DNA of 64,000 bases from Ohessyouella blattaphilus (GTDB taxonomy: Bacteria > Bacillota > Clostridia > Lachnospirales > Lachnospiraceae), in the NCBI RefSeq assembly GCF_024721265.1, contig NZ_JAMXOC010000015.1, forward strand, positions 1-64,000. The letters run 5' to 3'. The notes under the pieces were generated by a model that was not told the origin of the DNA, made no database searches, and was given only the letters and a program-made list of their open reading frames with translations. Shown in pieces: positions 3,618-64,000 of the stretch; positions within the stretch are counted from its first letter, which is position 1, and every line of letters starts with the position of its first letter. The position numbers and the translations under genes are program-made.

Positions 3618-3637
3618 TTTTAAAAACCTCTTTCTTG

Positions 3638-6598: not shown

Positions 6599-7636
6599 GT
6601 GGAAAAGATTAGATTGACATCACTTAGTAAGACCGCTGGCTGAGCTGCCAAATTTGGTCCAGAGACCCTCGCTCAGGTGCTGAGCGAGTTACCGGGATTT
6701 ACCGATCCCAATTTAATCGTGGGCATTGAGACTTCAGACGATGCGGCGATTTATAAAATCAATGACGAAGTAGCGATGATTCAGACTTTGGATTTTTTCA
6801 CCCCGATTGTGGATGATCCTTATATGTTTGGTCAGATTGCCGCAGCCAATTCTTTAAGCGATGTCTGGGCAATGGGCGGCGACCCGAAGGTGGCCCTCAA
6901 TATTGTGGCTTTTCCGGCCTGTCTTGATGTGGCGATTTTAGGAGAAATCTTAAAAGGCGGGGCCGATAAGGTGAAAGAAGCGGGTGCTGTCTTAGTGGGC
7001 GGTCACACGATACAAGACGATGAGCCTAAGTACGGCTTAAGCGTGTCAGGATTCGTCCATCCAGATAAGATTTTTAAAAACTATGGCTGCCAGGCGGGGG
7101 ATGCTTTGATTCTCACGAAGCAAATCGGTAGTGGAATTATCAATACGGCTATTAAAGGCGAGATTGCTTCGGAGCAGGCGATAACAGAGGCTCAGGAGAC
7201 GATGGCAGCTCTGAATAAGAAGGCCAAAGAAGTGGCAGCAAAGTACCAGGTGTCGGCTTGCACGGATATCACCGGGTTTGGGCTCTTAGGCCACTGCGCG
7301 GAGATGGCGGGAGCCAGTAACGTAACGTTTTCCCTGACGGCTCAGGATATTCCTTTGATGGCAGAAGCTGCAAGTTATGCCAAAATGGGCTTTATCCCTG
7401 CCGGTGCCTATAAGAATCGTGAGTTTACCAGGAATCAAGTGGATGCGGGTGACTTACCGGAGTATTATTTGGATCTCTTTTACGATCCCCAGACTTCAGG
7501 AGGCTTGCTTTTAAGCGTTCCCGGGGCGCAAAAAGAAGCGCTGATGAGCGATTTGCTAGGGGCAGGCCTTTCCACGAAGGTGGCGGTGATTGGCGAGGTT
7601 CAGGATAAGCAGGAGAAGTTGATAAATTTGAGGTAA
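6599..7636 (+). CDS. selD: selenide, water dikinase SelD, selenocysteine-containing
   Basis: SelD makes selenophosphate from selenide and ATP for SelA. The frame begins at GTG 6599 (AAGGAG seven bases upstream) and reads [14 protein letters not shown], then TGA at 6641-6643, then [11 protein letters not shown]. This continues without interruption into the SelD body ([36 protein letters not shown]). TGA falls exactly at the catalytic Cys/Sec position (residue 15), so it encodes selenocysteine. Total length is 345 residues, normal for SelD. A conventional gene caller would start it falsely at 6677. Neighbours selA and selB support the reading. Confidence 0.95.
6641..6688 (+). promoter_or_regulatory. 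bacterial SECIS element of selD
   Basis: Directly after the TGA (6641-6643) there are two stackable hairpins. GGTC-CAGA-GACC spans 6656-6667, and CTCGCTCAG-GTG-CTGAGCGAG spans 6668-6688. Bacterial SECIS hairpins sit just downstream of UGA within the coding region and bind SelB. The exact SelB-contacting loop cannot be fixed by eye. Confidence 0.7.
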
Positions 7637-9058: not shown

Positions 9059-10971
9059 AGCATATAATTGTAGGAACGGCTGGCCATATCGATCACGGGA
9101 AGACTACCCTTATTCGTGCGTTAACGGGACGCAATACGGACCGCTTAGAAGAAGAGCAGCGCCGGGGAATCACCATCGATTTAGGGTTTACGTATTTTGA
9201 TTTAGCAAAGGATAAGCGAGTGGGTATCATTGATGTCCCCGGCCATGAAAAGTTTGTGGGCAACATGGTTGCCGGTGTGGTGGGGATGGACTTGGTTCTC
9301 CTAGTAATCGCTGCCGATGAAGGGATTATGCCTCAGACTAGGGAGCATATGGACATTCTCCATCTTCTTGGTATTGACAAATGCATTGTGGTGCTGAATA
9401 AGTGCGATCTGGTGGATGAGGAGTGGCTAGAGCTTGTGAGGGACGAAATAAAGGAAGAATTTACAGGTACTTTTCTTGAAAAAGCACCTGTTGTTTGTGT
9501 GTCTGCGGCGACAGGAGCGGGGATTCCCCAGCTGAGCGATGAAATCGACCAGATGACAACAGCAGTAGCCAGAGAAGCGACGGGTGCAGGAGTACCCCGC
9601 CTGCCGGTAGACCGAGTGTTTACCCTTTCTGGCTTTGGCACAGTAGTAACCGGTACCTTGATTGCCGGACACGTTAAAAAAGAAGATTTGATGATGGTCT
9701 ACCCTGGGGAACAGGAATGTCGTATCCGCAGTCTGCAAGTTCACGGGGAGAATGCAGAAGAAGTGGCGGCCGGACAGCGAGTGGCCGTTAATATTTCGAA
9801 CCTGAAGAAGAAAGAGATTAAAAGAGGTGCAGTTCTAGCGAAGCCTAACAGTATGAAGGCTACGGATTTATTAGATGTAAAGCTAGAGATGCTCCCTAGT
9901 TCCCTGCGGGTATTGACGACCAACATGCGCTTGCATTTTTTCACGGGTACCAGTGAGGTGTTAGCTAGAGCAGTGCTGCTTGAAGGGGAGGAAATTGGTC
10001 CTGGAGAGTCTGCTTACGTGACGCTACGCCTAGAAGAGAAAATCGCCGTTAGAAATGGCGACCGGTTTGTGGTTCGCTTCTATTCGCCTTTAGAGACCAT
10101 TGGCGGCGGGGTGATTCTAGAAGCGAATCCAGCAAGCAAGAAAAGGGATAAGGCTAAGGTGGCAGCTACCCTTAAGCAAAAAGAAGCAGGGGATCCCCGA
10201 GATGTTGTGCTTTTGCAGGTGGCAGAGCGGGGACATCGGCCGCTAGGGCTTCAGGAGCTGGCTAAAGCCTTAGGTAGTGCCCCTGATGAAGTGAAGCAAT
10301 ATGCGAAAGAATTAGAGGGCGAAGAGCGCTTAGTTATTTTAAGCTTAGCGAAAGAGGAGTACTATCTAGAAGCAGAACAATGCCGGGAGATGGAGCGAGA
10401 AGTAATCGCAAGCTTAACGGCCTACGAAGAGAAGTATCCTTATCGTTACGGACAGAAAAAGGCAGAGGTTCTTACCGCCCTTTTTAAAGGCATGAAACCA
10501 GGGGTTTTTGATGCTTTGATTGAGAGGATGGTAGCCGCAGGTGAGATTAAGCGCCAAGAGGAATATTTATCTACGATAGCCTTTGAAATAAAGGAAGACG
10601 AGACGTATACCACCGTTCGCCAGCGCTTGCTATCCGCTTTTGATGCGGCAAAGTATGATTTTATCCGCTACCGGGAGCTTGATTTTGGCAAAATCTCAGA
10701 AGGGGTGGTAGATGATATCCTGCAGGTGCTAGTTGTGGGCGGTGAAGTGGTGAAGATTAACGACGACTTCTTTACCTTAGCTAGCTTAATGGACGGGGCA
10801 AAGACCATCGTGGAACAGCAATTGGCGGCTGATGGAGTCATTACCATTGCTCAGGTCCGAGATCTGTTTCATACCAGTAGGAAAAGCGCCAAACCGATTC
10901 TTGAGTATATGGACGGAATTAAGGTGACGAAGAAGACCGGCGGTGAGAGTGAAAGGGTGGCATTTAAATGA
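9055..10971 (+). CDS. selB: selenocysteine-specific elongation factor SelB
   Basis: The 638-residue GTPase delivers Sec-tRNA(Sec) to the ribosome at UGA by binding the SECIS hairpin. The N-terminus has an EF-Tu-like G domain: GTAGHIDHGKTTL (G1), RRGITIDLGF (G2), DVPGHEKFVGNM (G3) and VLNKCDLV (G4). Beta-barrel domains and C-terminal winged helices follow (about residues 370-638), ending in FHTSRKSAKPILEYMD. It overlaps selA upstream and the LysR gene downstream by four bases each, so selA-selB-lysR are one translationally coupled set. Confidence 0.97.
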   Translation: MKHIIVGTAGHIDHGKTTLIRALTGRNTDRLEEEQRRGITIDLGFTYFDLAKDKRVGIIDVPGHEKFVGNMVAGVVGMDLVLLVIAADEGIMPQTREHMDILHLLGIDKCIVVLNKCDLVDEEWLELVRDEIKEEFTGTFLEKAPVVCVSAATGAGIPQLSDEIDQMTTAVAREATGAGVPRLPVDRVFTLSGFGTVVTGTLIAGHVKKEDLMMVYPGEQECRIRSLQVHGENAEEVAAGQRVAVNISNLKKKEIKRGAVLAKPNSMKATDLLDVKLEMLPSSLRVLTTNMRLHFFTGTSEVLARAVLLEGEEIGPGESAYVTLRLEEKIAVRNGDRFVVRFYSPLETIGGGVILEANPASKKRDKAKVAATLKQKEAGDPRDVVLLQVAERGHRPLGLQELAKALGSAPDEVKQYAKELEGEERLVILSLAKEEYYLEAEQCREMEREVIASLTAYEEKYPYRYGQKKAEVLTALFKGMKPGVFDALIERMVAAGEIKRQEEYLSTIAFEIKEDETYTTVRQRLLSAFDAAKYDFIRYRELDFGKISEGVVDDILQVLVVGGEVVKINDDFFTLASLMDGAKTIVEQQLAADGVITIAQVRDLFHTSRKSAKPILEYMDGIKVTKKTGGESERVAFK

Positions 10972-11873
10972 ATCTAAAACAACTAGAGGCGTTTGTGAAA
11001 GTGGCAGAGCTTAGGAACTATTCTAAGGCGGCAAAACAGATGTATCTTACTCAGCCCACCGTTAGCGCTCATATTTTTTCTTTGGAAAAGGAGCTGGAGA
11101 CCCGGCTTTTTATTAGAAGTACGAAAGAGGTGTACTTAACGGATGAAGGGAAGATGCTCTATAAGTATGCCAAGGAAATGGTGGATTTAGAAGCGAAGAT
11201 AAAAGAGAGCTTTTCTAGAAACGAGGAAGCTGGAAGTAGTGGCATCACCATCGCTGCCTCCACCATTCCCTCCCAGTATTTGCTCCCAGGGCTACTATCA
11301 GAGTTTAGTAAAAAGTATCCTGGCGAGCAGATTAAGATTATGGAGGCGGATTCTGGTGGGGTAGTGGAGAGTATTGTTGACCACCGGGTGGACGTCGGCT
11401 TTACCGGAACGGTACTAGAAAAGAAGCATTGTACGTATATTCCTTTTTATCAAGATGAGCTGGTGATTATTACTCCTAATACGGAAAAGTACCGGAAACG
11501 AAAGAATGCTTCCGATATTGCTTGGCTTAAGGAAGAGAATATTATCTTCCGCGAGGAGGGCTCAGGGACGCGAAAAGAGGCAGAAAAGCAACTGGTGGCA
11601 GCAGGGATTGCGCTAGAGGAATTAAAGGTGATTGCCAGTATGGAGAATCAAGAGACGATTAAAAATTCGGTAGCCCAGGGGATGGGGATATCGGTTCTGT
11701 CAAAGCTTGCGGCAACGGAAGAGGTAGAGGCAGGTAAACTGCTGGCGTTTACCATACCGGGAACGACAGGTGGCAGAAGTATTAACTTAGTGTATAACAA
11801 AAACTATCCACTAACCAAGACGGTTCAGCGGTTTATTAAGGTGGTTAAGGAAAGTGGAGAGTCATTTAGATAA
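10968..11873 (+). CDS. selenium metabolism-associated LysR-family regulator
   Basis: The 301-residue protein has the LysR N-terminal helix-turn-helix (MNLKQLEAFVKVAELRNYSK, then LTQPTVSAHI) and a periplasmic-binding-like effector domain. Its position inside the selenium operon, coupled to selB, matches the LysR subgroup repeatedly found with yedE and yedF. The effector is unknown. It probably regulates this operon or the adjacent csd-yedE-tusA genes; a pair of direct repeats lies at its 3' end. Confidence 0.88.
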   Translation: MNLKQLEAFVKVAELRNYSKAAKQMYLTQPTVSAHIFSLEKELETRLFIRSTKEVYLTDEGKMLYKYAKEMVDLEAKIKESFSRNEEAGSSGITIAASTIPSQYLLPGLLSEFSKKYPGEQIKIMEADSGGVVESIVDHRVDVGFTGTVLEKKHCTYIPFYQDELVIITPNTEKYRKRKNASDIAWLKEENIIFREEGSGTRKEAEKQLVAAGIALEELKVIASMENQETIKNSVAQGMGISVLSKLAATEEVEAGKLLAFTIPGTTGGRSINLVYNKNYPLTKTVQRFIKVVKESGESFR

Positions 11874-14748: not shown

Positions 14749-15336
14749 TTAAAAACCTTCAACAAATTTATCCAATAAGCTAGGCAGTAAGCGATCACTG
14801 TACTCGGTAAGGGAGAACTTGCCCTTATAGAGAGCGTAATCGTACAACAAAGCACGCTCAAACATGGCGTAGTAGTGTAAAAGCAAGTCGGCGGAAGATG
14901 TCTTTTTAAATTCACCATTTGCCATACCTTCTTCGATAATCTCGAGAATCCATTTGAAATAAAATCTCTTTTTATCGGATAACGAACGCTTATCCTTAGT
15001 CACAAGCTGTGAGGAATAGAGATAAGCTAAAATCTCAGTATCGATTTTGTGTTCAATCATGTCAAAGAGCGCATGATTCAAATACCGTAGCTTCTCGTAA
15101 GCCGAGAGGCTATGATCGATGGTTTCATACAGTTCCTTATACATGTCGTCAAAAAGGTAGGAAAGAGAATTTAGAAGGCTCTCCTTGCCTTTGAAATAGT
15201 GGTAAAAGGTCCCTTTTGAGGTTTTTGAGGAGACGATAATTTCTTCAACAGTGGTCTTATCGTAGCCGTTCTTATGAAAAAGGTTCCACGCTGCCTTTAC
15301 AATTCTGCTTTTAGTTGATTGCCTCTTTTTTGGCAT
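14749..15336 (-). CDS. TetR-family regulator downstream of proline racemase
   Basis: The 195-residue protein has the TetR helix-turn-helix (NGYDKTTVEEIIVSSKTSKGTFYHYFKGKESLL, residues about 19-51). Its ribosome binding site TAGGAG overlaps the stop codon of the upstream proline racemase gene, so the pair is translationally coupled. It is clearly paralogous across its length to the TetR protein at 60628-61209, which follows proC in the same way. It probably senses proline or a related metabolite; that is inference. Confidence 0.92.
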   Translation of the reverse strand: MPKKRQSTKSRIVKAAWNLFHKNGYDKTTVEEIIVSSKTSKGTFYHYFKGKESLLNSLSYLFDDMYKELYETIDHSLSAYEKLRYLNHALFDMIEHKIDTEILAYLYSSQLVTKDKRSLSDKKRFYFKWILEIIEEGMANGEFKKTSSADLLLHYYAMFERALLYDYALYKGKFSLTEYSDRLLPSLLDKFVEGF

Positions 15337-15344
15337 GTTTGCTC

Positions 15345-16373
15345 CTATCCAACAACGAAGCCGTACTTAAGTGGGTCGTCTCCGTCGATTACGTATGTTG
15401 CTTCACCGGTTACATATGCACTACCAGTAATCTGCGGGACTACAGCCTTGAAATCGCCGATGTTGGTCTCTTCTAAGATCACACCCTTAAACTGTGAGCC
15501 GATAAAACTTTCATATACGAATGGCTCGCCGATGCCGATTTCGTCTCTAGCGTAAAGAGTTGCTAGCTTAGCGCTAGTTCCCGTACCGCAAGGTGAACGG
15601 TCAGCCATCCGATCCCCAAAGATAACCACGTTGCGCTTATCAGCACCAGGAGTATCTGTATCTGAGTAAATTTCGCATAAATCAACAGTTGTAATATCAA
15701 GAGTAGGATGCTTCATCTCTACTTCTTTATTAACTGCTTCAATCATCTTCATGCCGAAATCGGTTAGAGCAGGGATGTTCTTTGGTTCAATGGCCATGCC
15801 CAGTTGATCCGCTTTTACCAGGGCGAAAAAGCTTCCGCCAAAGGAAATGTCATAAGTAATCTCTTTCCCGTCGATGGTGGTCTTTAAGTTTTCTTTGTAC
15901 AGAAAAGCAGGAACATTAGTTAAAGTTACATTAAGAACTTTCCCGTCCTTAACTTCGGCTTTTGTCTTAATGATGCCGGCAGGAGCTTCTAAAGTAACCT
16001 CAGTAAAAGGCTCTTTTGCTTCCACAAGACCGCTCTCGATTAAAGCGGTAACTGTACCGATAGTACCGTGGCCACACATATTAAGATATTCTCCAGTATC
16101 CATAAAGAAAACTGCAAAATCAGCTTCTTTACTAATTGGCTCGGTTACGTAAGCGCCGAACATATCGTGATGTCCCCTTGGCTCAAACATCAGTGCTTGA
16201 CGATACTTGTCATAATTCTTGTGAAGATAGTTCTTGCGTTCAATAGGTGTATCTCCCTTTAGCTCTGGAAAGCCAGAGAAAAGAATTCGCGTGAATTCAC
16301 CTACTGTGTGGGTGTCGATAGCCTTAAAAGATGCTTCGTACGCATCAAGGTTCAACTTGGGTTTCAGTTCCAT
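15345..16373 (-). CDS. prdF: proline racemase
   Basis: The 342-residue protein has both catalytic cysteines of proline racemase, in MCGHGTIGT (about residue 97) and SPCGTGTSA (about residue 262). This separates it from 3-hydroxyproline dehydratases, which replace one of them. It interconverts L- and D-proline without a cofactor and so provides the D-proline used by PrdA/PrdB, whose genes lie divergently beyond tRNA-Sec. Its ribosome binding site is AAAGGAGG. It is followed by the coupled TetR gene. Confidence 0.95.
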   Translation of the reverse strand: MELKPKLNLDAYEASFKAIDTHTVGEFTRILFSGFPELKGDTPIERKNYLHKNYDKYRQALMFEPRGHHDMFGAYVTEPISKEADFAVFFMDTGEYLNMCGHGTIGTVTALIESGLVEAKEPFTEVTLEAPAGIIKTKAEVKDGKVLNVTLTNVPAFLYKENLKTTIDGKEITYDISFGGSFFALVKADQLGMAIEPKNIPALTDFGMKMIEAVNKEVEMKHPTLDITTVDLCEIYSDTDTPGADKRNVVIFGDRMADRSPCGTGTSAKLATLYARDEIGIGEPFVYESFIGSQFKGVILEETNIGDFKAVVPQITGSAYVTGEATYVIDGDDPLKYGFVVG

Positions 16374-16619
16374 TTTGAATACCTCCTTTGAAGTTAAATG
16401 ATTTGATTCCTATAGAAAAAATCTATAGGTTGCTTTATCTAAACATCTCAGATTTCCCCTTCTTCGATGTTTTAGCCATACCAATTTTTTTCTAGAATGG
16501 TTAGTTTTTTAACGATTAGACCGTATTCTAGACCCTTGTTCAGTTTTGTAATCACATTATCGCCGAAAATCCCCTAAAAGTCAATGTTTTTTAAGAATTT
16601 TAAAAATAACTTTTAGGTG
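16374..16619. other. gene-free control region upstream of proline racemase with three inverted repeats
   Basis: No gene is seen. Three inverted repeats stand out. CCTATAGA/TCTATAGG spans 16409-16429 with a 5-base gap, 36 bases before the racemase start. TCTAGAAT/ATTCTAGA spans 16491-16532 with a 26-base gap. CCTAAAAGT/ACTTTTAGG spans 16573-16617, just before the tRNA-Sec promoter. They are candidate operators or mRNA hairpins; I found no convincing -35/-10 pair for the racemase. Confidence 0.45.
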
Positions 16620-16672: not shown

Positions 16673-16770
16673 GGGGGTAGATGGGTGTCTGGTGTGCCTC
16701 CTAGTCTTCAAAACTAGTGTAGGGCGTTAAGAGCGTCCTGGGTGGGTTCGATTCCCACATGCCTCCGCCA
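16673..16770 (+). tRNA. selC: tRNA-Sec (anticodon TCA)
   Basis: The 98-base gene has the anticodon stem CTAGT/ACTAG at 16701-16717 around loop CTTCAAA, anticodon TCA at 16708-16710. The T stem is GTGGG/CCCAC around TTCGATT, there is a long variable arm, and an encoded CCA lies at 16768-16770. Eight nucleotides between the T stem and the discriminator give the long acceptor typical of tRNA-Sec. The acceptor is GGGGGTAG against ATGCCTCC, with two G-U pairs and an unpaired innermost position. It inserts selenocysteine at the UGA codons of selD and prdB here. Confidence 0.95.
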
Positions 16771-16847
16771 AAAAAAGATTTTTAACTTTAGAGTGTAGTT
16801 AATTAAACGACAAAGTTTTTATAGAATATTTATATAAGTATTACAAT

Positions 16848-16902: not shown

Positions 16903-18228
16903 ATGGGAAATGTGCAACTGTTGTTAAGGCAACATGTAGGAGCGCCTTGTGCAGCCATTGTGAAAGTAGGCGACAAGGTGGAAAAGGGGACTCTGATTGC
17001 TACACCGACCGGGCTGGGGGCTAATATCCATTCTAGTGTCTACGGCGAAGTGGTCGAGGTTTTGGAGGACCGGATCATTATTAAACCGGACGAAGAACAA
17101 CCGGATGCTTTTGTGAAAATCAAAGAGGGAACACCTCTAGAGATGATCAAAGAAGCAGGACTTGTAGGTATGGGCGGTGCTGGATTCCCAACAGGAGTAA
17201 AGCTTGATACCAAGATTCCAGGAGGAGCGTTCCTAGTAAACGCGGCAGAGTGTGAGACGGGTCTTGTGCATAATGTGCGCCAGATTGAAGAAGACTTTGC
17301 GAGAACCCTTCGCGGCCTGAAGTATGCTATGGAAATTACCGAAGCGGCGAAAGGTATTTTTGCCATTAAGGCGAAGAACGAAAAGGCAGTGGCAGTTATT
17401 CGCGAAGCCATTAAAGACGAGCCGAATATTTTCATTCACCTGTTAGCGGATATTTACCCATCAGGAGAAGAGCGGGCGGTCATTAGAGAATGTCTTGGAG
17501 TTACCCTAGGCGTGGATAAGTTGCCTTCGGCAGCCAATGCTGCTGTCGCTAACGTAGAGACGCTTTTGCGTATTACTGAGGCGATTGAAGACAGAAAGCC
17601 TTGTTTTAGTAAGAATTTGACGGTTATCGGCCATTTAAACGATGGCAACAAACCACACGTATATTTCGATGTTCCGGTAGGTACATCTGTTGGCGAATTG
17701 ATTGAGAAGTCAAGCGGTATCGAAGAGCCTTACGGCGAGATTATCCTAGGTGGACCTTTTACTGGTAAACCAACGACGGTTGATACTCCGATTACTAAGA
17801 CCACAGGCGGTATTGTGGTAACCATGGAGTTTATGGATTTACATCAGGCGCCAACGGGAATCTTAATCTGTGCTTGTAGTGGCAATGAGGAGCGGATGCG
17901 CGATGTTGTTAGTAAGTATAATGGTAAAGTGTGCTCCGTTACTATGTGTAAGCAAGCGGTAGAGATGAAGAGCGGTGCTCTTAAATGTGAAGACCCAGGG
18001 AATTGCCCAGGGCAAGCGGAAAAGGTTCTGAAGATGAAGAAAGACGGTGCCGAATACATTGTGATTGGTAACTGTTCTGACTGTTCTAATACGGTTATGG
18101 GCTCAGCACCTAAAATGGGACTGAAAGTCATTCATCAAACAGACCACGTTATGCGGACGATTGGTCACGCGATTTACCGGAAATTACGTATTTCCAAACA
18201 GGTACCACAACTGCCAAACGGCAAATAA
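16903..18228 (+). CDS. prdC: proline reductase-associated electron transfer protein PrdC (RnfC-like)
   Basis: The 441-residue protein resembles RnfC/NuoF-type proteins: GMGGAGFPTGVKL at about residue 85, VNAAECETGLVHN, YPSGEERAVI and ILGGPFTGKPT. A C-terminal cysteine-rich part follows (LICACSGNEERM, CEDPGNCPGQ, IGNCSDCSNT). PrdC passes electrons from NADH or a ferredoxin-linked pool to D-proline reductase at the membrane or in the cytoplasm. The ATG at 16903 has AAAAGGAG ten bases upstream, better than the ATG at 16894. No in-frame TGA is present, so this copy uses cysteine only. Confidence 0.92.
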   Translation: MGNVQLLLRQHVGAPCAAIVKVGDKVEKGTLIATPTGLGANIHSSVYGEVVEVLEDRIIIKPDEEQPDAFVKIKEGTPLEMIKEAGLVGMGGAGFPTGVKLDTKIPGGAFLVNAAECETGLVHNVRQIEEDFARTLRGLKYAMEITEAAKGIFAIKAKNEKAVAVIREAIKDEPNIFIHLLADIYPSGEERAVIRECLGVTLGVDKLPSAANAAVANVETLLRITEAIEDRKPCFSKNLTVIGHLNDGNKPHVYFDVPVGTSVGELIEKSSGIEEPYGEIILGGPFTGKPTTVDTPITKTTGGIVVTMEFMDLHQAPTGILICACSGNEERMRDVVSKYNGKVCSVTMCKQAVEMKSGALKCEDPGNCPGQAEKVLKMKKDGAEYIVIGNCSDCSNTVMGSAPKMGLKVIHQTDHVMRTIGHAIYRKLRISKQVPQLPNGK

Positions 18229-18389: not shown

Positions 18390-20246
18390 ATGTCAATCAC
18401 AGCTGAAACAGCAAAAGCTCACGCAAATGATCCAGCGGTACTTTGCTGTAGAAGAGAAGCGGGAACGGTTATCTCAGTGTCTGATCTTGAAGATCCGGCG
18501 ATCTTTGATGATCTAGTGGATTCTGGACTTTTGAATCTGGATGGCGCACTTACTATTGAACAAGTAGTTGGCGCGACACTTAAAGAGACAAGAGATTCAC
18601 TCCAACCGTTGACAGCAGATGTTCTTGATGGAGTAAAAGCAAGCTCAGCTCCAGCAGCACCTGCAGAAGAAGCACCAGAAGAAGAGGTGGCAGCACCGGT
18701 ATTACCAGCAGGCGCGCCAGTTGCAGCAGCAGGTGGCGTACTGAAAATTCACATTGGTGAAGGTAAGGATATCGATCTTGAGATTCCAGTGGGAGCAATA
18801 GGTGCAGCTGGCGCAGTAGCACCAGGAGTAGCTGGGGCAGTGGCACCGGTAGCGGCAGCAGCTGAAGCTGCAGTAGCAGGTGAAGAAGTGGTAGTTAGAA
18901 CCTTAACTAGAAAACACTTTAACATCACCGAAGTTAAGAGAGGACCAGAGACGAAGATCGAAGGAACAACTCTTTACATTCGCGAAGGTATTGAGAAAGA
19001 AGCTGTTGATAGCCAAAACTTGGTTGTTGACTTGAAAGTGGATATTATTACTCCAGATAAGTATCATACCTATTCAGAAACGGTAATGGACGTACAACCA
19101 ATCGCTACCAAAGAAGGCGATTCAGAGGTTGGTAGCGGCGTGACTCGCGTGCTTGACGGCGTTATTATGATGGTAACAGGTACCGATGCTAATGGTGTTC
19201 AAATTGGTGAATTCGGTTCTTCAGAAGGATACTTAGACGAGAATATCATGTGGGGACGTCCAGGTTGTCCAGAGAAGGGTGAAATCTTTATTAAAACCCA
19301 AGTGACGATTAAAGAAGGCACGAACATGGAGAGACCAGGACCTTTAGCAGCTCATGCAGCAACGGACCACATTACGCAGGAAATCCGTGAAGTGATGAAG
19401 AAGTTAGACGAGTCTCTCGTGGTAGATAGCGAAGAGTTTAAGCAAGTTAGAAGACCGGGCATGAAGAAAGTGGTTATCGTTAAGGAAATCATGGGCCAAG
19501 GTGCTATGCATGATAACTTACTTCTACCAGTTGAGCCAGTAGGTATCTTAGGTGGAAAGCCAAACGTTGACTTAGGAAACGTACCGGTATGTGTATCTCC
19601 GCTTGAGTTATTAGATGGTTGTGTTCATGCACTTACCTGTATTGGACCAGCATCTAAAGAGATGTCTAGACACTACTGGAGAGAGCCATTAGTATTAGAA
19701 GCTCTTCACGATCCAGAAGTGGATTTGGCTGGTGTTATCTTAGTTGGTAGCCCACAAATTAACTCCGAAAAATTCTACGTTTCTAAACGTGTTGGTATGA
19801 CTGTTGAGATGTTAGGAGCTGATGGTGCCTTCGTAACTACTGAAGGATTTGGTAACAACCACATCGACTTCGCAGCTCACCATGAAGAAATCGGTAAACG
19901 CGGTATTCCAGTTGTTGGTTTATCTTTCTGTGCAGTTCAAGGTGCTCTTGTTGTAGGTAACGAGTACATGACAGCTATGGTAGATAACAATAAATCAGAA
20001 GCTGGTATCGAGAATGAAGTTCTTGGCTGTAACACCCTTTGCCACGAAGATGGTATTCGGGCGTTAGCGATGCTTAAGGATGCAATGCTTGGGGAAGATA
20101 TCAAGAAAGCTGAAAAAGCATGGAATCCAAACGTTAAATCAACCAACCTTGAGTTGATCTCTAATGTAACTGGAAAGCCAATCGAATTAGTAGAAAATGA
20201 GCAATCATTACCGATGAGCCAAAAACGTAAAGAAAAATATAGCTAG
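18390..20246 (+). CDS. prdA: D-proline reductase proprotein PrdA
   Basis: The 618-residue proprotein is processed in known homologues at an internal cysteine, which becomes the N-terminal pyruvoyl group of the smaller subunit. Here the matching site is ALT-CIGPASKE, with Cys417 encoded at 19638-19640. PrdA with PrdB reductively cleaves D-proline to 5-aminovalerate in the cytoplasm. An Ala/Pro/Glu-rich linker (about residues 83-113) separates a small N-terminal domain from the conserved core. The ATG at 18390 follows AAGGAGG; an in-frame GTG at 18363 lacks one. Confidence 0.96.
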   Translation: MSITAETAKAHANDPAVLCCRREAGTVISVSDLEDPAIFDDLVDSGLLNLDGALTIEQVVGATLKETRDSLQPLTADVLDGVKASSAPAAPAEEAPEEEVAAPVLPAGAPVAAAGGVLKIHIGEGKDIDLEIPVGAIGAAGAVAPGVAGAVAPVAAAAEAAVAGEEVVVRTLTRKHFNITEVKRGPETKIEGTTLYIREGIEKEAVDSQNLVVDLKVDIITPDKYHTYSETVMDVQPIATKEGDSEVGSGVTRVLDGVIMMVTGTDANGVQIGEFGSSEGYLDENIMWGRPGCPEKGEIFIKTQVTIKEGTNMERPGPLAAHAATDHITQEIREVMKKLDESLVVDSEEFKQVRRPGMKKVVIVKEIMGQGAMHDNLLLPVEPVGILGGKPNVDLGNVPVCVSPLELLDGCVHALTCIGPASKEMSRHYWREPLVLEALHDPEVDLAGVILVGSPQINSEKFYVSKRVGMTVEMLGADGAFVTTEGFGNNHIDFAAHHEEIGKRGIPVVGLSFCAVQGALVVGNEYMTAMVDNNKSEAGIENEVLGCNTLCHEDGIRALAMLKDAMLGEDIKKAEKAWNPNVKSTNLELISNVTGKPIELVENEQSLPMSQKRKEKYS

Positions 20247-20520: not shown

Positions 20521-21246
20521 ATGAGTTTAACAGTAGTTAAAGGAATGCAATCTGAAATATTCGTTCCTATTACTCCACCGATGGTGTGGACTCCTGTTAC
20601 AAAAGCGCTTAAAGATATGTCGATTGCTCTAGCAACGGCAGCAGGCGTTCATAAAAAAGAGCAGGAAAGATTTAATCTTGCTGGGGACTTTACCTGGAGA
20701 AAAATTGAAAACACCACACCTTCAAGCGATTTGATGGTATCTCATGGTGGTTACGATAATGCGGATGTTAATAAGGACATCAACTGTATGTTCCCGATTG
20801 ACAGAATCCACGAATTAGCAGCAAGTGGTTTTATCAGAGCTTGTGCGCCTGTACACGCAGGTTTCATGGGTGGTGGTGGAAACCAAGAGAAGTTCAAGCA
20901 TGAAACAGGACCGGCTATTGCGGAAATGTTTAAAGAAGAAGATGTTGATGCTGTTCTTCTTACAGCTGGCTGAGGCACCTGCCACCGCTCTGCAGTATTG
21001 GTGCAGAGAGCGATTGAAGAAGCTGGAATTCCAACTATTATTATTGCAGCTCTTCCGCCGGTTGTACGGCAAACAGGTACTCCAAGAGCTTCTGCTCCCC
21101 TCGTTCCGATGGGTGCAAACGCTGGAGAACCAAACAACCCAGAACAACAAACTGAAATTGTAAAAGCAACATTAGAATTACTCGAGACGATTGATCAACC
21201 GGGTAAAATTGTGCCATTGCCTTTCGAATATCACGCAAAGGTTTAG
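20521..21246 (+). CDS. prdB: D-proline reductase selenoprotein PrdB (Sec at in-frame TGA)
   Basis: The frame runs MSLTVVKGMQSEIFVPITPP to DAVLLTAG, then TGA at 20971-20973, then GTCHRSAVLVQRAIEEAG to the stop at 21244-21246, giving 241 residues with Sec151. The Sec-Gly-Thr-Cys motif is the catalytic centre of PrdB, which attacks the alpha C-N bond of pyruvoyl-bound D-proline. A strong hairpin follows the TGA. Reading TGA as stop would lose the catalytic and C-terminal third. The start is two bases after the preceding gene, with AAGGAGG. Confidence 0.97.
20971..21012 (+). promoter_or_regulatory. bacterial SECIS element of prdB
   Basis: After the TGA (20971-20973), CTCTGCA (20988-20994) pairs perfectly with TGCAGAG (21002-21008) around loop GTATTGG; CG/CG pairs extend it across a small bulge. 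The loop begins 21 bases after the TGA, in the usual range for a SelB-binding hairpin. Confidence 0.75.
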
Positions 21247-21452: not shown

Positions 21453-22220
21453 TTGGACGGTAAGGAGACAATCCTGAGACGTTTGGTCATTAAAGCGTTT
21501 CATATTGATGAGGTAAGCGTTGGTGAAGAAAACAGTGCAGGTACGACGGGAGTGATGACCGTTAATAAGGATGTTTTAGCATCTTTATCTAAGGATTACC
21601 CAGAGATAGAAAGCATTGATTTACAGGTGATTGCCCCTGGTGATCACGACCGCTACACGAATACGATTATGGATATTATCCCGATTTCCACGAAAGTGTT
21701 GGGAAATATTGGTGAGGGGATTACTCATACATTAACAGGTGTTTACGTAATGCTGACGGGTGTGGACACGGTCGGTAAGCAGACCCACGAGTTTGGCTCT
21801 TCGGAAGGAAATCTAAAAGAGCAGTTGTATCTCAACCGGGCAGGAACGCCGGGCGATGATGATTATATAATCTCTTTTGACGTAACTTTGAAAGCAGGGA
21901 TGGGACAGGAACGCCATGGCGTTGATGCGGCCCATAACGCTTGCGATCGTTTTGTACAAATCTTTCGCAATCAGCTGAAAAAGTTTAAAGGAGATTTGGC
22001 GACGGAACGTCACGAATTTTACGATAAGATTAAGCACGGAAAGAAGCGGGTGGCGATAATTAAGCAGGTAGCTGGCCAAGGCGCTATGTACGATATGCAG
22101 CTTTTTGCCAAAGAACCTTCTGGTATGGAAGGTGGGCGCTCGATTATCGACTTAGGAAACATGCCAGTTATAGTAACTCCGAATGAATACCGAGACGGTA
22201 TTATTCGTTCGAAGCAATAG
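21453..22220 (+). CDS. prdD: proline reductase-associated protein PrdD (PrdA alpha-part paralogue)
   Basis: The 255-residue protein is paralogous to the region of PrdA that precedes its processing site: IDLQVIAPGDHDRYTNTIMDI, GEGITHTLTGVYVMLTGVD, EFGSSEGNLKEQL and IDLGNMPVIVTP all have PrdA counterparts. It stops exactly where PrdA is cleaved. I chose TTG at 21453 because AAGGAGG lies eight bases upstream; the longer in-frame ATG at 21345 would run through hairpins. It is conserved in prd operons but not essential to the purified enzyme's known composition, so its role is unclear. Confidence 0.88.
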   Translation: MDGKETILRRLVIKAFHIDEVSVGEENSAGTTGVMTVNKDVLASLSKDYPEIESIDLQVIAPGDHDRYTNTIMDIIPISTKVLGNIGEGITHTLTGVYVMLTGVDTVGKQTHEFGSSEGNLKEQLYLNRAGTPGDDDYIISFDVTLKAGMGQERHGVDAAHNACDRFVQIFRNQLKKFKGDLATERHEFYDKIKHGKKRVAIIKQVAGQGAMYDMQLFAKEPSGMEGGRSIIDLGNMPVIVTPNEYRDGIIRSKQ

Positions 22221-22233
22221 GAGGTAAAAAGAG

Positions 22234-22701
22234 ATGGGAATAGGTCCTTCGACTAAAGAAACATCGCTTCACCACTTCCGGGACCCTTTGCTTGATGTGG
22301 TGGCAAATGATGACGATTTGGATTTAATGGGAATTATTATTGTGGGAACTCCTGACGGCAATGAAGAGAAAATGCTGGTGGGAACACGCACGGCGATTTG
22401 GTGTGAGTGCATGCGGACGGACGGCGTGATTATTTCTTCGGATGGTTGGGGAAACTCCGACGTGGACTTTACCAATACGGTAGAGCAACTCGGCATTCGC
22501 GGCATTCCGGTGACGGGGCTTAATTTTAGCGGTACCGTCGGCCAGTTCGTAGTAACGAATAAATACTTGGATGCGATTGTGGACATTAATAAAAGCGCGG
22601 AAGGCGTAGAAACCAACGTTGTTGGCGAAAATAACGTGGTGGAGTTGGATTGCCGCAAAGCGATGGCGATGCTTAAGCTTAAGATGCGGGAACAAAAGTA
22701 G
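22234..22701 (+). CDS. prdE: proline reductase-associated protein PrdE (PrdA beta-part paralogue)
   Basis: The 155-residue protein aligns with the C-terminal, pyruvoyl-bearing fragment of PrdA. It opens [18 protein letters not shown] where PrdA has CIGPASKEMSRHYWREP, so the pyruvoyl-forming cysteine is replaced by the start region and no such cofactor can form. Later [20 protein letters not shown] matches LSFCAVQGALVVGNEYMTAM. It begins 13 bases after prdD with AGGAGG and is followed by a terminator. Confidence 0.88.
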
Positions 22702-23237: not shown

Positions 23238-24122
23238 TTATGAAGTCACGGTTTTTCTTGAATCGTTGATCATCATGAAACCTACGAGGAACATTACACA
23301 TACCAAAATCCAGAACAATACGTTGAGTGGAAGGTTGGTAATAATTGTATAGGCAAGGAATACGCCGACACAACCAGCAGTAGCGTTCATTAATGCAGCA
23401 AAGCGGTCGTATTTACCGGCTTTGATAAATGCAAAACTTCCAGCGATCATTAGATAAGCACAAGAGCCCATCATAACTGGGAAAGCTGCGGTGATGTTCA
23501 TGCCCATGATTGAACAAAGAGCGATACAAGGTGTGTAAAGACCAACACCGATCATCATAAGTGCACCAAGTACAAACTGAACAACACAAGCGATAACAAG
23601 TTTTACACCACTTAGACCAAGAGCAGTACCAGCTACACCGAAAGGTCCAACGCCTAATTGTCTCATAACCATGAGTACACCGAGAATAATAAGACAAACA
23701 CCCATTCCTAAGCGAATCTTCTTAACATCCCAACCAACTAGGATACGTACACCGATAACAGCGCCAAGCATAGCGGCGATAATCATTGATGCAAGTGTAA
23801 GACCGTCCATGTCTACTGAACCAATGAAAAGCCAAGCTTCAAAACAAACAGGAAATGCATCGCCGACATTGAGAACACCTGGGATATATTCATCCTCACA
23901 GGTTTTTGTAAGTTTCATAGCGGCGGTGGTTGGTCCAAAAGAACCAATACCAAGTGTGTCTAACAGGTTCGCGACTAAGCCGATTATGCCTAAGATAATT
24001 CCCCTCTTTACGCTCAATCCCTTGAAATCTTCTTTGTGCTTGAAGCAGTCAACGATAAAGTAGAGTCCCATAGCAATGATGCCGACTAACATAATAAGAC
24101 GTAAAATTAAAGCTACATTCAT
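23238..24122 (-). CDS. TSUP-family (TauE/SafE) membrane transporter
   Basis: The 294-residue protein is hydrophobic, with eight or more membrane segments and the repeated glycine-rich pattern of TauE/SafE proteins (GLVANLLDTLGIGSFGPTTA near the N-terminus, GALMMIGVGLYTPC in the second half). The family exports or imports sulfite, sulfoacetate and other small anions. The substrate here is unknown; its place after the proline reductase operon is not informative. It has its own upstream region with a palindromic element. Confidence 0.88.
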   Translation of the reverse strand: MNVALILRLIMLVGIIAMGLYFIVDCFKHKEDFKGLSVKRGIILGIIGLVANLLDTLGIGSFGPTTAAMKLTKTCEDEYIPGVLNVGDAFPVCFEAWLFIGSVDMDGLTLASMIIAAMLGAVIGVRILVGWDVKKIRLGMGVCLIILGVLMVMRQLGVGPFGVAGTALGLSGVKLVIACVVQFVLGALMMIGVGLYTPCIALCSIMGMNITAAFPVMMGSCAYLMIAGSFAFIKAGKYDRFAALMNATAGCVGVFLAYTIITNLPLNVLFWILVCVMFLVGFMMINDSRKTVTS

Positions 24123-60627: not shown

Positions 60628-61209
60628 TTACGTGCGAAAATGCCAAAGCATTAGCGGGAGCGTATCTTTACTGTAAGTAGTAAGAGAATAGCTGGCCCGG
60701 TTTAAGCACCAGTCGGTAACCAGGGCTCGTTCGCACATCGTATAGTATTTTAGCAATTCACTAATCGTACGATCTTTGCGAATCTCACCTCTGGTTTGCC
60801 CTTCCTCAATAATACTGCGCACAAGGCGGTAGTATTTGCGGTTCTGGTCAAGTAGCGTCCGGTCGCCTTTGGAGGTAAGCTGGGTTGAGTAGAGAGAGGC
60901 GATCAGATCGAGGGGCAAATGATCCTCCATAAAGCGATGAACCTCATAGTCGATTAGTAGGAGCTTGTCGATGCTACCAAGCTGTGGGTCCATTTCCTTT
61001 TCTAGGCGACGATACTGGTCGTCTAGAACATCGGATAAGGTATGTAATAGGGCGTCCTTTCCTTCAAAATAGTAGTAGAACGAACCCTTTGAAGTACCAG
61101 CAAGAGTGATGATATCATCCACCGTGGTATTGTCATAGCCGTTGCGAAAGAAAAGTTCCCACGTCGCCTTTATGATTTTTTCTTTGATACTTTCTTCTTC
61201 CTGGGTCAT
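60628..61209 (-). CDS. TetR-family regulator downstream of proC
   Basis: The 193-residue protein has the TetR helix-turn-helix (NGYDNTTVDDIITLAGTSKGSFYYYFEGKDALL). Its whole length parallels the TetR protein at 14749-15336, for example LIASLYSTQLTSKGDRTL against ILAYLYSSQLVTKDKRSL. It follows proC by 14 bases on the same strand. It is the best candidate to bind the palindrome at 62126-62147 in the divergent promoter region. Confidence 0.92.
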   Translation of the reverse strand: MTQEEESIKEKIIKATWELFFRNGYDNTTVDDIITLAGTSKGSFYYYFEGKDALLHTLSDVLDDQYRRLEKEMDPQLGSIDKLLLIDYEVHRFMEDHLPLDLIASLYSTQLTSKGDRTLLDQNRKYYRLVRSIIEEGQTRGEIRKDRTISELLKYYTMCERALVTDWCLNRASYSLTTYSKDTLPLMLWHFRT

Positions 61210-61223
61210 AGCTTCTTCCTTCC

Positions 61224-62018
61224 TTATAGTGAACGAGATTTATCAGCGGAGGCAAGCACCGCCTCCATAACGGCTGAACGAAAGCCCATATTTTCTAAGG
61301 TGCGCACGCCTTCGATGGTAGCACCGCCAGGAGAGCATACCATATCCTTTAACTCACCTGGGTGTTTTCCTGATTCTAAGAAGAGCTTGGCACTGCCAAG
61401 AAGGGTCTGAGCGGCTAGTTCGTAAGCTTGCGACCTTGAGAGACCGCCAACTACGCCAGCATCAGCCAGGGCTTCGATAAATAGGAAGCAATATGCCGGT
61501 CCACAGCCGCTGACACCTGTTAAAATATCTAATAGATCTTCTTTGATGGCCACGGTACGTCCAAAAGCATTGAGGACTTCCAGGCCTTTCTTTAAGTCTT
61601 CTTCTGTCACTTTATCGCCAGCACAGACACCAGTCATGCCTTCTTTTACCAGGGCTGGGGTATTCGGCATCGTCCGGATAATTTTCATCTCTTTACCAAA
61701 GGTTTCATTTAACCAAGCCAATGTTTTTCCAGGAATAATGGTGATAAAGAGCTGGTCCTCCCGGACGTGGTCGCGAATATCTTTAATCACCTCTTCCACA
61801 AACTGGGGCTTAACCGAAAGCACCACGATATCTGCCAGACTCACCACCTCTAGATTCTGATCGGTTACTTTAATGCCGAAGTTCTTTGCGGTCTTCTCTC
61901 TACTAGGAGCGTAGACATCAGCTCCGATAATATCTTCTTTGTGATAAGCACCACTGTCTAATAAACCACCAATAATTGCTCCAGCCATGTTGCCACAACC
62001 AATAAATCCGATTTTCAT
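61224..62018 (-). CDS. proC: pyrroline-5-carboxylate reductase
   Basis: The 264-residue enzyme reduces pyrroline-5-carboxylate to L-proline with NAD(P)H. Motifs: IGFIGCGNMAGAIIGGLL (Rossmann), IIRTMPNTPALV, SGCGPAYCFLFIEAL and the proC signature ending in CSPGGATIEGVRTLE. Beside the hydroxyproline dehydratase genes it most likely handles the product of HypD. AGGAGGT lies upstream. Confidence 0.97.
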   Translation of the reverse strand: MKIGFIGCGNMAGAIIGGLLDSGAYHKEDIIGADVYAPSREKTAKNFGIKVTDQNLEVVSLADIVVLSVKPQFVEEVIKDIRDHVREDQLFITIIPGKTLAWLNETFGKEMKIIRTMPNTPALVKEGMTGVCAGDKVTEEDLKKGLEVLNAFGRTVAIKEDLLDILTGVSGCGPAYCFLFIEALADAGVVGGLSRSQAYELAAQTLLGSAKLFLESGKHPGELKDMVCSPGGATIEGVRTLENMGFRSAVMEAVLASADKSRSL

Positions 62019-62051
62019 AAAATACCTCCTGTGCGTGTGTGTTCAGTATCC

Positions 62052-62080
62052 AATATAGCACCCGGGATTACATACGTCAA
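62052..62080 (-). promoter_or_regulatory. promoter of proC
   Basis: On the minus strand TTGACG (62080-62075) and TATATT (62057-62052) are 17 bases apart. Confidence 0.75.
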
Positions 62081-62095
62081 AAAATTGATAATTAA

Positions 62096-62147
62096 TTGAC
62101 AAGAACGGGGAAAAATGCTATCTTTGACTTAAGTTTAAACTATAGTC
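62096..62147 (+). promoter_or_regulatory. promoter and operator palindrome of the hypD activase gene
   Basis: TTGACA at 62096-62101 and TATCTT at 62119-62124 are 17 bases apart. Immediately downstream, 62126-62147 is a 22-base near-perfect palindrome with core AGTTTAAACT and outer GACT/AGTC. It covers the expected start of transcription near 62131. Such placement fits repression, probably by the TetR protein encoded after proC. Confidence 0.75.
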
Positions 62148-62161
62148 TAAAAGGAGTCAAT

Positions 62162-63070
62162 ATGCCAATTATTACAGGGATTCAGAAGTATTCTATCCAT
62201 GATGGCCAGGGGATTCGCAGTACTGTGTTTTTTAAAGGATGTCCTCTTTCCTGTAGCTGGTGTCACAATCCGGAAACCCAGAATTATCAGCGGCAGCTCT
62301 CAGTGGATGAAGAGCGCTGTAGCGGCTGCGGAAAGTGTCTAAAAGGCTGTGAGACAGAGTGCATTCAGTTAGAAGCTACACGCACCCAGACGGATTTTGA
62401 CAAGTGTACTGCTTGCGGTGATTGTGCAGATTACTGTTATCAGAACCTGCGAACGGTAATCGGAGAAGAATACGAAGTCGAAAAGTTAGTGGATTTGCTA
62501 AAGCGTGACGAGATGTTTTACGAAGAGTCTGGCGGCGGCGTAACGCTTTCGGGCGGTGAAGTAATGACCCAGGATATGGATTATTTAGAAACGCTTCTAA
62601 AAAAGTTAACTCTTCTGGGTATTAGCGTCAATATCGATACGTGCGGATATGCCCCTTATGTAAACTTTGAGCGGATACTGCCTTATGTGGACACCTTTCT
62701 GTACGACGTGAAGGTGATTGATGACCAGAAGCACCGTCATCACATGGGGGTATCGAACACTCTGATTCTGGAAAATCTGGAAAGACTCGCCTTAGCAGGG
62801 GCCAGCCTTAATATTCGGATACCGGTAGTCGGTAGCGTAAACGCAAACTCTCAAGATATAAAGGCGATTGTCGATTATCTTGGGGAGCGAAAGATCCAGC
62901 CAGTCCAGATTAATTTACTACCCTATCACAATACTGGCTCAGGAAAGTATGGGCGTATCGGTAAGGAGTATCAAGGAGAAACTTATGCGACACCCGCGGC
63001 AGCAGAGATGGATGACTTTGCCAAGCTATTTACGGGTGCCGGTTTTACAAATGTCAAAATAGGAGGATAG
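62162..63070 (+). CDS. glycyl-radical activating enzyme for HypD
   Basis: The 302-residue radical-SAM protein has the CxxxCxxC cluster in FFKGCPLSCSWCHNPE, then two ferredoxin-type clusters (CSGCGKCLKGCETEC and CTACGDCADYC) inserted as in PFL-activase relatives, and VTLSGGEVMTQ. It generates the glycyl radical on HypD, whose gene starts six bases later. AAAGGAG precedes ATG 62162. Confidence 0.95.
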   Translation: MPIITGIQKYSIHDGQGIRSTVFFKGCPLSCSWCHNPETQNYQRQLSVDEERCSGCGKCLKGCETECIQLEATRTQTDFDKCTACGDCADYCYQNLRTVIGEEYEVEKLVDLLKRDEMFYEESGGGVTLSGGEVMTQDMDYLETLLKKLTLLGISVNIDTCGYAPYVNFERILPYVDTFLYDVKVIDDQKHRHHMGVSNTLILENLERLALAGASLNIRIPVVGSVNANSQDIKAIVDYLGERKIQPVQINLLPYHNTGSGKYGRIGKEYQGETYATPAAAEMDDFAKLFTGAGFTNVKIGG

Positions 63071-63076
63071 GAAAGG

Positions 63077-64000
63077 ATGAACGAACGAGTTAAGAGGTTA
63101 AGACAAGAAAGCTTAGACACTCAGGCCCACATTGATATGGCACGGGCTAAAAGCATGACGGCGACGTATGAAAAGTACGAAGGAAGCGTCTCGATTCCTG
63201 AGTTGCGAGCGCTAGTATTAAAAGAGTATTTTAGCACCAAGGAACTTTACCTAGGGGAAGGTGAATTAATCGTTGGGGAAAAGGGGGATGGACCTCAGGC
63301 AGCACCGACGTTTCCTGAGCTTTGCTGCCACACTAGCGAAGATATGCACGTGATGAACGACCGGGAACTGATTAATTTTAAGGTTAAGAACGCGGATTAC
63401 GCTTATCAGGAACAGGAGATTATCCCTTTCTGGGAAAAGCGTTCCATTCGCAAGAAAATTCTAAGCAATATGACGCCTGCTTGGAAGGACTGCTATGAAG
63501 CCGGCTTATTTACGGAGTTTATGGAGCAAAGAGGCCCAGGTCACACCGTGGGCTCAGCGAAGATATATGAAAAAGGTTTTCTCGATTATCAGGCTGATAT
63601 TGACGCAGCGATTGCCAATCTCGATTATCTAAATGATAAAGAAGCCTTAGACAAAAAATCAGAACTGCTAGGCATGCGCATTGCCTGTGAGGCGGTGATG
63701 ATTCTTGGAGAGCGTTACCGGGAGCTGGCGCTTACGATGGCCGCTAAGGAAACCGATGAAAAGCGGAAAGAGGAGCTTTTACAAATCGCGAAAAACTGTG
63801 AAGTAGTGCCGGCTCATAAGCCTCAAACGTATTGGCAAGCAATTCAGATGTACTGGTTTGTGCATCTCGGCGTTACTACCGAACTAAACCCCTGGGACGC
63901 TTATAGTCCGGGGCGTTTGGATCAGCACCTGATTCCCTTTTACAAGGAAGATGCAAAAGCCGGTCGCTTAGACGATGAGCAGGCCTTAGAGCTCTTAGAA
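63077..64000 (+). CDS. hypD: trans-4-hydroxy-L-proline dehydratase HypD (5' part, cut by window end)
   Basis: An open frame runs from ATG 63077 to the window end (308 codons, no stop). It matches HypD-type glycyl-radical dehydratases: ELIVGEKGD, CCHTSEDMHVMNDRELINF, FTEFMEQRGPGHTV, VVPAHKPQTYWQAIQMYWF by motif and VTTELNPWDAYSPGRLDQHL. HypD dehydrates hydroxyproline to pyrroline-5-carboxylate. The catalytic cysteine and C-terminal glycine loop lie beyond the window. AGGAGG lies ten bases upstream. Substrate assignment rests on likeness to remembered HypD sequence and on the proC neighbour. Confidence 0.93.
   Translation, partial: MNERVKRLRQESLDTQAHIDMARAKSMTATYEKYEGSVSIPELRALVLKEYFSTKELYLGEGELIVGEKGDGPQAAPTFPELCCHTSEDMHVMNDRELINFKVKNADYAYQEQEIIPFWEKRSIRKKILSNMTPAWKDCYEAGLFTEFMEQRGPGHTVGSAKIYEKGFLDYQADIDAAIANLDYLNDKEALDKKSELLGMRIACEAVMILGERYRELALTMAAKETDEKRKEELLQIAKNCEVVPAHKPQTYWQAIQMYWFVHLGVTTELNPWDAYSPGRLDQHLIPFYKEDAKAGRLDDEQALELLE

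Follow-up and report, generated by a model that had tools for sequence, protein, structure and literature searches.

The first 64,000 nucleotides (nt) of a 79,770-base contig of Ohessyouella blattaphilus, referred to here as the window (genome of 3.25 Mb, assembled in 88 contigs), hold at two loci the genes of a predicted route from hydroxyproline to 5-aminovalerate, and each locus carries a gene for a TetR-family protein. We consider it likely that these two paralogues, TetR1 beside the genes for the HypD activase (hypA) and HypD, and TetR2 beside the D-proline reductase (prd) genes, act locally to repress the Stickland fermentation of hydroxyproline and proline and are released by a ligand; binding, repression and ligand are all predicted here from sequence. 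TetR1, as a dimer or a pair of dimers, would bind a palindrome of 26–28 bp at 62124–62149 that starts at the end of the -10 box in the hypA-hypD promoter. A protein bound over the start of the transcript would therefore block RNA polymerase, and TetR1 would be released by a small molecule of the pathway, be it hydroxyproline, pyrroline-5-carboxylate or proline. HypD and its activase would then yield pyrroline-5-carboxylate and ProC would yield L-proline, which PrdF would racemise, with PrdA/PrdB reducing D-proline to 5-aminovalerate. TetR2, the sister repressor, would bind a related palindrome at 16517–16542, just downstream of the prdF promoter. The features on which the TetR1 part of the argument rests are as follows.

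60628–61209, minus strand: TetR1, predicted repressor of hypA-hypD, 193 amino acids (PF00440, 2.4e-16; PF08359)
62052–62080, minus strand: proC-tetR1 promoter-like site, TTGACG-17-TATATT
62096–62124, plus strand: hypA-hypD promoter-like site, TTGACA-17-TATCTT, with a -10 box that abuts the operator
62124–62149 (28 bp with flanks, 62123–62150), no strand: predicted TetR1 operator TTGACTTAAGTTTAAACTATAGTCTA, conserved in relatives

An earlier note on this DNA had described the 22-base palindrome GACTTAAGTTTAAACTATAGTC at 62126–62147 as a repressor-type operator at the activase promoter, facing proC-tetR1 across paired consensus promoters. Both consensus-like promoters are present, on opposite strands, and that stretch holds four promoter-like sites against 1.4 expected. 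Judged from the single sequence, the palindrome is barely above chance: 9 of its 11 symmetric pairs match, the window contains 19 22-mers as symmetric where ten shuffled windows have 5–14, and one such 22-mer turned up in 24 of 1000 shuffles of the 143-bp intergenic region. Pattern search, which was used for the genome motif scans, found no further copy of GACTTAAGTTTAAACTATAGTC in the genome at up to three mismatches. We take the palindrome to be real because it is conserved upstream of the activase in relatives. This comparison supports an operator at the activase promoter, with a length of 26–28 bp rather than 22. That the operator is of the repressor type is supported by its co-occurrence with TetR1, by a distance to the -10 box that hardly varies and by the change of site type with the TetR protein.

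TetR1 relatives were taken from genomes of the family. Upstream of the activase in these relatives the operator has a 26-bp consensus, TAGACTAWAGT-N4-ACTWTAGTCTA; the pattern was built from seven activase upstream regions, several of them in genomes of the discovery draw. It was found with at most 5 mismatches in 22 positions in 24 of 28 activase upstream rows from TetR1-bearing genomes, each time with none of 200 shuffles as good, and since G305 and N_CAMNRH are identical in sequence this corresponds to 23 of 27 distinct hypD loci. The discovery draw itself gave the operator in 10 of 10 genomes with TetR1 (at least 50% identity) and in 0 of 139 others, a comparison that is not independent because the pattern was written there. 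A further 248 genomes had the operator, at up to three mismatches, in 10 of 19 cases with TetR1 and in 3 of 229 without. Because G305 proved to be identical to the contig of a named locus that had gone into the pattern, it is excluded from the p-values, which compare 9 of 18 TetR1 genomes with 3 of 229 others (p = 1.2e-9) and, when two mismatches at most are allowed, 7 of 18 with none of 229 (p = 3.1e-9). The sites in TetR1-less genomes (G156, G329 and G251) have three mismatches each. A reversed-pattern control was unassociated with TetR1 (4/19 versus 29/229, p = 0.23). By the criterion of at least 50% identity 29 genomes are TetR1-positive, including G120 and G201, which the tree described below places with symporter-linked proteins, and G132, which falls outside the TetR1 clade. 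The operator occurs in 20 of these 29, and in 17 of the 20 it lies at hypA; it is found at an M24 peptidase gene in G123, at a PutP-like symporter gene in G120 and, probably by chance, at genes with no evident link in G132.

The operator also keeps a nearly constant position relative to the promoter. Counting -35/-10 pairs that score at least 9 of 12, the -10 box ends at the operator or one base inside it in 20 of 26 operator rows, compared with 11% for random positions, and all 20 pairs consist of TTGACA or TTGACG, 17 nt and TAnnnT. Since the start codon follows the operator at anything from 38 to 204 nt, it is the promoter spacing that is kept. A genome of the same genus carries the activase gene, hypD, tetR1 and proC closely in a row on one strand, and this run of genes is preceded by the same kind of promoter and by an operator with four mismatches.

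The proposal that the palindrome also controls the proC-tetR side is unsupported. About 43 nt separate the operator from the proC -35 box, upstream of which it lies, and we found no evidence that it controls proC in the window. The upstream stretches of proC in nine of ten relatives carry a TTGTATACAA palindrome instead, the tenth having almost no upstream sequence. One or two of these palindromes precede proC in loci L054, L056–L060, L074, L075 and L078, and a GntR/FCD regulator gene adjoins proC in L056 (8205–8840). The TTGTATACAA palindrome looks like a separate control of proC that is not seen in the window.

The strongest argument that these TetR proteins read these sites is that the type of site at hypD changes with the TetR. 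In a tree of 92 rows, whose bootstrap had not settled, TetR1 falls in a clade of 35 rows (18 of them close to hyp genes, 12 to proC and 5 other; support 96/99) and TetR2 in a clade of 32 (31 at prd and 1 other; support 99/98). A further group comprises 12 rows beside PutP-like symporters; the symporter scored reached 508.6 bits against a PutP cut-off of 515.5. Four long-branched rows in the TetR1 clade are unsure of place and were excluded from residue counts. Residue 46 of the recognition helix is tyrosine in 31 of 31 TetR1 rows and histidine in 31 of 31 TetR2 rows, 12 of 12 symporter-linked rows and 5 of 5 basal rows. Five hypD genomes carry a basal His46 TetR, beside the activase gene in G309, G323, G168 and G204 and about 12 kb away in G221, and the hypD promoter has a TetR2-type site in all five, with 1 to 3 mismatches and none of 500 shuffles as good in each case. 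Eight comparison genomes (G112, G352, G122, G149, G072, G243, G259 and G201) have neither TetR1 nor a basal TetR, although G122, G149 and G201 carry other members of the TetR family elsewhere; a TetR2-type site was found at none of their hypD promoters, where the best match had 6 to 8 mismatches, the level of shuffled sequence. The difference between 5/5 and 0/8 gives a Fisher p of 8e-4, in a comparison that was devised after the tree had been seen and that includes G204, whose activase lies below the search cut-off. Operator type at hypD promoters tracks the clade of the TetR rather than the gene, and it correlates with residue 46.

Sites away from hypD lie at genes for a PutP-like symporter, an M24 prolidase-like peptidase, a second prd cluster and a TauE-type permease, and at the genes in G132. 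The ligand is probably a metabolite of the pathway, because several of these sites lie at proline-linked genes. Genes that follow TetR1 in relatives had been taken for an ABC transporter; this was wrong, and in L057 they encode an anaerobic ribonucleotide reductase and its activase.

TetR2 and its operator at the prd locus are additions to the earlier account. The features concerned are listed here.

14749–15336, minus strand: TetR2, paralogue of TetR1 and predicted repressor of prdF-tetR2, directly downstream of prdF
15345–16373, minus strand: prdF, proline racemase (NF010576 is the top match, 468 bits, under the cut-off of 556)
16409–16429, no strand: second palindrome, of 21 bp, in the prdF leader, conserved in relatives
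16517–16542, minus strand: predicted TetR2 operator TGAACAAGGGTCTAGAATACGGTCTA, with one mismatch to the motif
16556–16584, minus strand: prdF promoter-like site, TTGACT-17-GATAAT, conserved in relatives

TetR2 is 43% identical to TetR1 over 188 amino acids (E = 4e-56), and within the genome the best match of TetR1 after itself is TetR2 (E = 2e-47), the next standing at 5e-7. A de novo search upstream of prdF yielded the palindromic motif TRRAC-N3-RTWCTAGWAY-N3-GTYYA with a log-likelihood ratio of 392, compared with 37–46 in three shuffles, and a related de novo motif was obtained from symporter upstream regions (117 versus 35–41 shuffled). Of 27 prdF upstream regions, 21 have the prdF motif with no or one mismatch and six with 2 to 5; the shuffles of prdF sites tested the pattern on its own source sequences. 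Mostly the motif begins 12–14 nt past a TTGACT-17-CATAAT or GATAAT promoter. At up to three mismatches, TetR2-type sites occur at seven places in the genome of the window versus 19 for the reversed control, and those other than 16517–16542 are at chance level. We found no evidence for control of prdC/prdA by TetR2; these genes run the opposite way, beyond the selenocysteine tRNA (tRNA-Sec) gene.

Several side observations concern the same sites. Contig C56 carries two TetR2-type sites, and the one examined adjoins a transporter gene. Genome G038 has two adjacent prd clusters and two TetRs (L065:5872–19001); one cluster is divergent (40–56% identical to that of the window) and has a TetR1-like site with three mismatches at its start. 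In L199 (G245), prdF is accompanied by the TetR2 that branches deepest in the tree, and upstream of that prdF lies a TetR1-like site, CGTAGTACAGTTTAGACTATAGTCTA, with no good TetR2-type site. The palindrome at 16409–16429 had been a candidate TetR2 operator and was dropped once the TetR2 site, built like that of TetR1, had been found de novo. It has the form YYATAGA-N5-TCTATRR, with a motif score of at least 10 in 25 of 28 rows. Copies with one mismatch lie upstream of prdC (16819–16837) and in the selenium gene block (5213–5231 and 5967–5985), an exact copy lies near capsule-type genes in L227, and genome-wide the pattern is barely above its control (21 places versus 16). The LysR regulator of selenium metabolism (NF040786; window 10968–11873), with homologues in 24 further loci of the set, could be the reader of this palindrome.

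TetR1 itself combines an N-terminal helix-turn-helix (PF00440, with the E-value given above) with a TetR fold. None of its 17 NCBIfam matches reached cut-off, and TetR2 was likewise without a match at cut-off. The top match of TetR1 is FadR (NF053878), at 58.5 bits against a cut-off of 200, which leaves it far short of the curated model for Bacillus-type FadR. An AlphaFold2 model (predicted local distance difference test score 81.5, poor at residues 110–121) gave FadR (Z 17.1), RolR and QacR (Z 15.7) as its top fold matches, and QacR is also among the best sequence matches. The IR1 site of QacR from Staphylococcus aureus is likewise a large inverted repeat that overlaps the promoter regulated by a protein of TetR fold, as described in PMC3022030; QacR differs in that its target is a multidrug pump and its ligands are others, and it binds as a pair of dimers. 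The operator length of 26–28 bp is compatible with such two-dimer binding, and no more than that. The TetR-family fatty-acid regulators FadR/YsiA of Bacillus, among the closest in fold, differ in that TetR1 scores far below their cut-off and that both the neighbours and the targets of TetR1 are proline genes.

The conserved neighbourhood might by itself bring TetR1 close to a palindrome that is bound by another factor. TetR1 does lie away from hypD, next to proC, in genomes such as G032, G057, G231, G328 and G366, and the proC genes of relatives have their separate TTGTATACAA palindrome, with a GntR-family gene beside proC in L056. In those same five genomes, however, the operator is found at hypD even though TetR1 is encoded elsewhere, contrary to mere neighbourhood. 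The operator is absent at hypD in the eight genomes that have neither TetR1 nor a basal TetR, the site type switches with the TetR clade, and related sites accompany prdF and the PutP-like symporter genes, both of them TetR-linked. Another factor is therefore an unlikely reader of the operator. Hardly anything speaks for a palindrome that arose by chance in an AT-rich promoter, in front of an ordinary hypD cluster with no specific control: symmetric 22-mers are common in one sequence, as the counts for the window and the intergenic shuffles illustrate, but conservation, the association in genomes outside motif building and the promoter spacing all run counter to chance, and we regard this explanation as very improbable.

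It is likewise improbable, to much the same degree as binding by another factor, that TetR1 binds the operator as an activator, or senses a ligand from outside the pathway such as acyl-CoA. FadR proteins that bind acyl-CoA are among its nearest solved relatives, and its best NCBIfam match is FadR, though far under cut-off. The operator, however, begins at the end of the -10 box, where a bound protein should block initiation, and several targets are proline-linked, namely hypD, prdF, the PutP-like symporter and the M24 prolidase-like peptidase. Repression by TetR1 and TetR2 with release by a pathway metabolite remains the reading that we prefer.

A number of observations weigh against this reading. 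TetR proteins can be activators. G316 has TetR1 and hypD without the operator, the site in G169 is weak (7 mismatches, with 8 of 200 shuffles as good), and the operator is missing at hypD in G201, whose TetR falls in the symporter clade of the tree, and in G123, where only 72 nt of upstream sequence are readable. Nine of the 29 TetR1-positive genomes have no site at up to three mismatches; four of the nine do have a hypA site, three with 4 mismatches and one with 5 (G261, G351, G379 and G349). The p-values are rough and overstate independence because the genomes are related. Published expression data are mixed. C. scindens showed no significant change of hypD with hydroxyproline by quantitative reverse transcription PCR in rich medium, according to PMC9044972, which also states that the medium already contained hydroxyproline. 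The same paper describes a rise in a number of prd genes with added hydroxyproline in C. scindens by RNA-seq and a rise of hypD with hydroxyproline in C. hylemonae, both of which fit, and it reports that transcriptional responses to hydroxyproline are species-specific (PMC9044972). The string TetR is absent from its main text.

The route itself is already known. C. difficile converts hydroxyproline to pyrroline-5-carboxylate, proline and 5-aminovalerate with HypD, pyrroline-5-carboxylate reductase and D-proline reductase (PMC9044972), that is, with the same enzymes and chemistry as here. The two loci differ from that system in their control, as each has a TetR, whereas prd in C. difficile is activated by the sigma-54-dependent PrdR; PMC6615313 places prd under sigma-54 and PrdR in C. 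difficile and eight further species. The string Lachnospir is absent from the main text of that paper. No PrdR was found in the genome of the window (88 contigs), where scoring against the PrdR model covered the sole near-complete sigma-54 activator domain among five matches: it reached 161 bits against a cut-off of 795. The other four matches are partial, at 31–37 bits. A regulator dedicated to hydroxyproline utilisation is described in PMC6608401, namely HypR of Streptomyces coelicolor, which is GntR-like where the regulator here is a TetR; both are tied to hydroxyproline use. Among the titles listed from the open-licence literature of PubMed Central there was no TetR regulator of hypD or prd, which is no proof of being unpublished. 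HypR is said to serve an oxidative pathway.

The regulators thus appear to add new members to the TetR repressors, a known kind, and their operator code is well supported. With moderate confidence we extend the proposal to the Lachnospiraceae at large, where a dedicated, so far undescribed family of paralogous TetR repressors would control the Stickland fermentation that draws on collagen and proline. It would have hypD, prd and symporter branches and related 26-bp operators, with a Tyr/His exchange that accompanies a switch in the operator core, and would replace PrdR at prd. C. scindens apparently belongs to it, since G322, which seems to be C. scindens ATCC 35704, has TetR1 and TetR2 sites without a mismatch. 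A candidate repressor and a defined DNA site, apparently perfect in this strain, make control of the trait directly testable, and the set offers naturally varied pairs of TetR and operator, together with a residue that is a candidate for setting specificity. It also suggests how gut-type Lachnospiraceae commensals turn on the hydroxyproline/proline pathway; hydroxyproline and proline are used by C. difficile as well as by commensal Clostridia, and a role of competition for nutrients in colonisation resistance has been proposed (PMC9044972).

The earlier note had placed a full route from hydroxyproline to 5-aminovalerate at two loci of the window, and this holds. As HypD, its activase, ProC and the prd cluster are all present, the route appears to be encoded in full. 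The right-hand locus consists of tetR1 and proC on the minus strand, divergent from the activase gene and hypD on the plus strand. The left-hand locus runs from tetR2 and prdF on the minus strand through tRNA-Sec to prdC, prdA, a small open reading frame (ORF), prdB, prdD and a prdE-like ORF, and comes after a selenium gene block (SelD, SelA, SelB and the selenium-associated LysR regulator). The remaining genes of the two loci are given below.

61224–62018, minus strand: proC, pyrroline-5-carboxylate reductase (TIGR00112, 287.8 bits; cut-off 196.75)
62162–63070, plus strand: HypD glycyl-radical activase, a radical SAM protein (NF043069, 442.1 bits; cut-off 425)
63077–64000, continuing to contig position 65437, plus strand: hypD, trans-4-hydroxy-L-proline dehydratase (NF043068)
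16673–16770, plus strand: tRNA-Sec gene between prdF and prdC (ARAGORN)
16903–18228 (chosen start; listed ORF from 16855), plus strand: prdC (TIGR04481, 632 bits; cut-off 490)
18390–20246 (chosen start; listed ORF from 18363), plus strand: prdA, D-proline reductase proprotein (TIGR04480)
20521–21246, plus strand: prdB, selenoprotein, with the in-frame TGA at 20971–20973 read as selenocysteine
21453–22220 (chosen start; listed ORF from 21345), plus strand: prdD (TIGR04482, 377 bits; cut-off 320)
22234–22701, plus strand: prdE-like ORF, homologue of the C-terminal part of PrdA (partial TIGR04480 match, 171 bits)

The activase scores above the cut-off of its curated equivalog model, and so does HypD (NF043068, 1513 bits against 1100). 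The window end cuts hypD, which is complete on the contig and encodes 786 amino acids; the continuation stretch L007 holds it at 3077–5437, corresponding to contig positions 63077–65437. The earlier note had made its reading depend on the part of hypD past 64000, and the cysteine, the glutamate and the glycine loop are all in place there: GTSGCVETG begins at residue 426 (Cys430/Glu432) and RVAGYSDHF at 758 (Gly761), within a C-terminal glycyl-radical domain (PF01228, 124.5 bits). We take Cys430 and Glu432 to be the catalytic residues and Gly761 the site of the glycyl radical. The best solved relative, 6vxc, is itself a HypD, presumably that of C. difficile, and the alignment spans query residues 3–785. 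The HypD of the window is a predicted hydroxyproline dehydratase.

D-proline reductase is identified by a PrdA of 973 bits on TIGR04480 (cut-off 700) and a selenocysteine-containing PrdB, with a tRNA-Sec gene in the cluster. The PrdB frame is open through its single in-frame TGA and has matches of 241 residues in relatives; its TIGR04483 score of 246.8 bits against a cut-off of 300 was obtained with only the part before the TGA as query. The position of the tRNA-Sec gene seems to be conserved, because four relatives (L045, L068, L069 and L070) also have its anticodon-arm sequence ahead of prdC. SelD is apparently a selenoprotein as well: a frame that opens with GTG at 6599 (window 6599–7636) is broken only by a TGA at 6641–6643, and the listed ORF, which starts at 6677, downstream of this TGA, does not cover positions 1–31 of the SelD model.

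Near the prd cluster, a permease-like gene (window 23238–24122) scores 30.4 for TauE, just under the cut-off of 32.6. In G147, a gene matching TauE (L108:1580–2455, 42.8 bits) has a TetR1-type operator-like site with three mismatches upstream, and the TauE-type permease is possibly a transporter for a compound of the pathway. Beyond the window, 1.4 kb past hypD, the contig encodes an IscB RNA-guided nuclease (66819–68315, L007:6819–8315; NF040563, 368 bits), with a HEARO RNA (RF02033, 116.6 bits) 46 nt ahead of its gene. An FMN riboswitch (L007:13862–13981) lies ahead of a membrane protein gene (L007:14045–14746).

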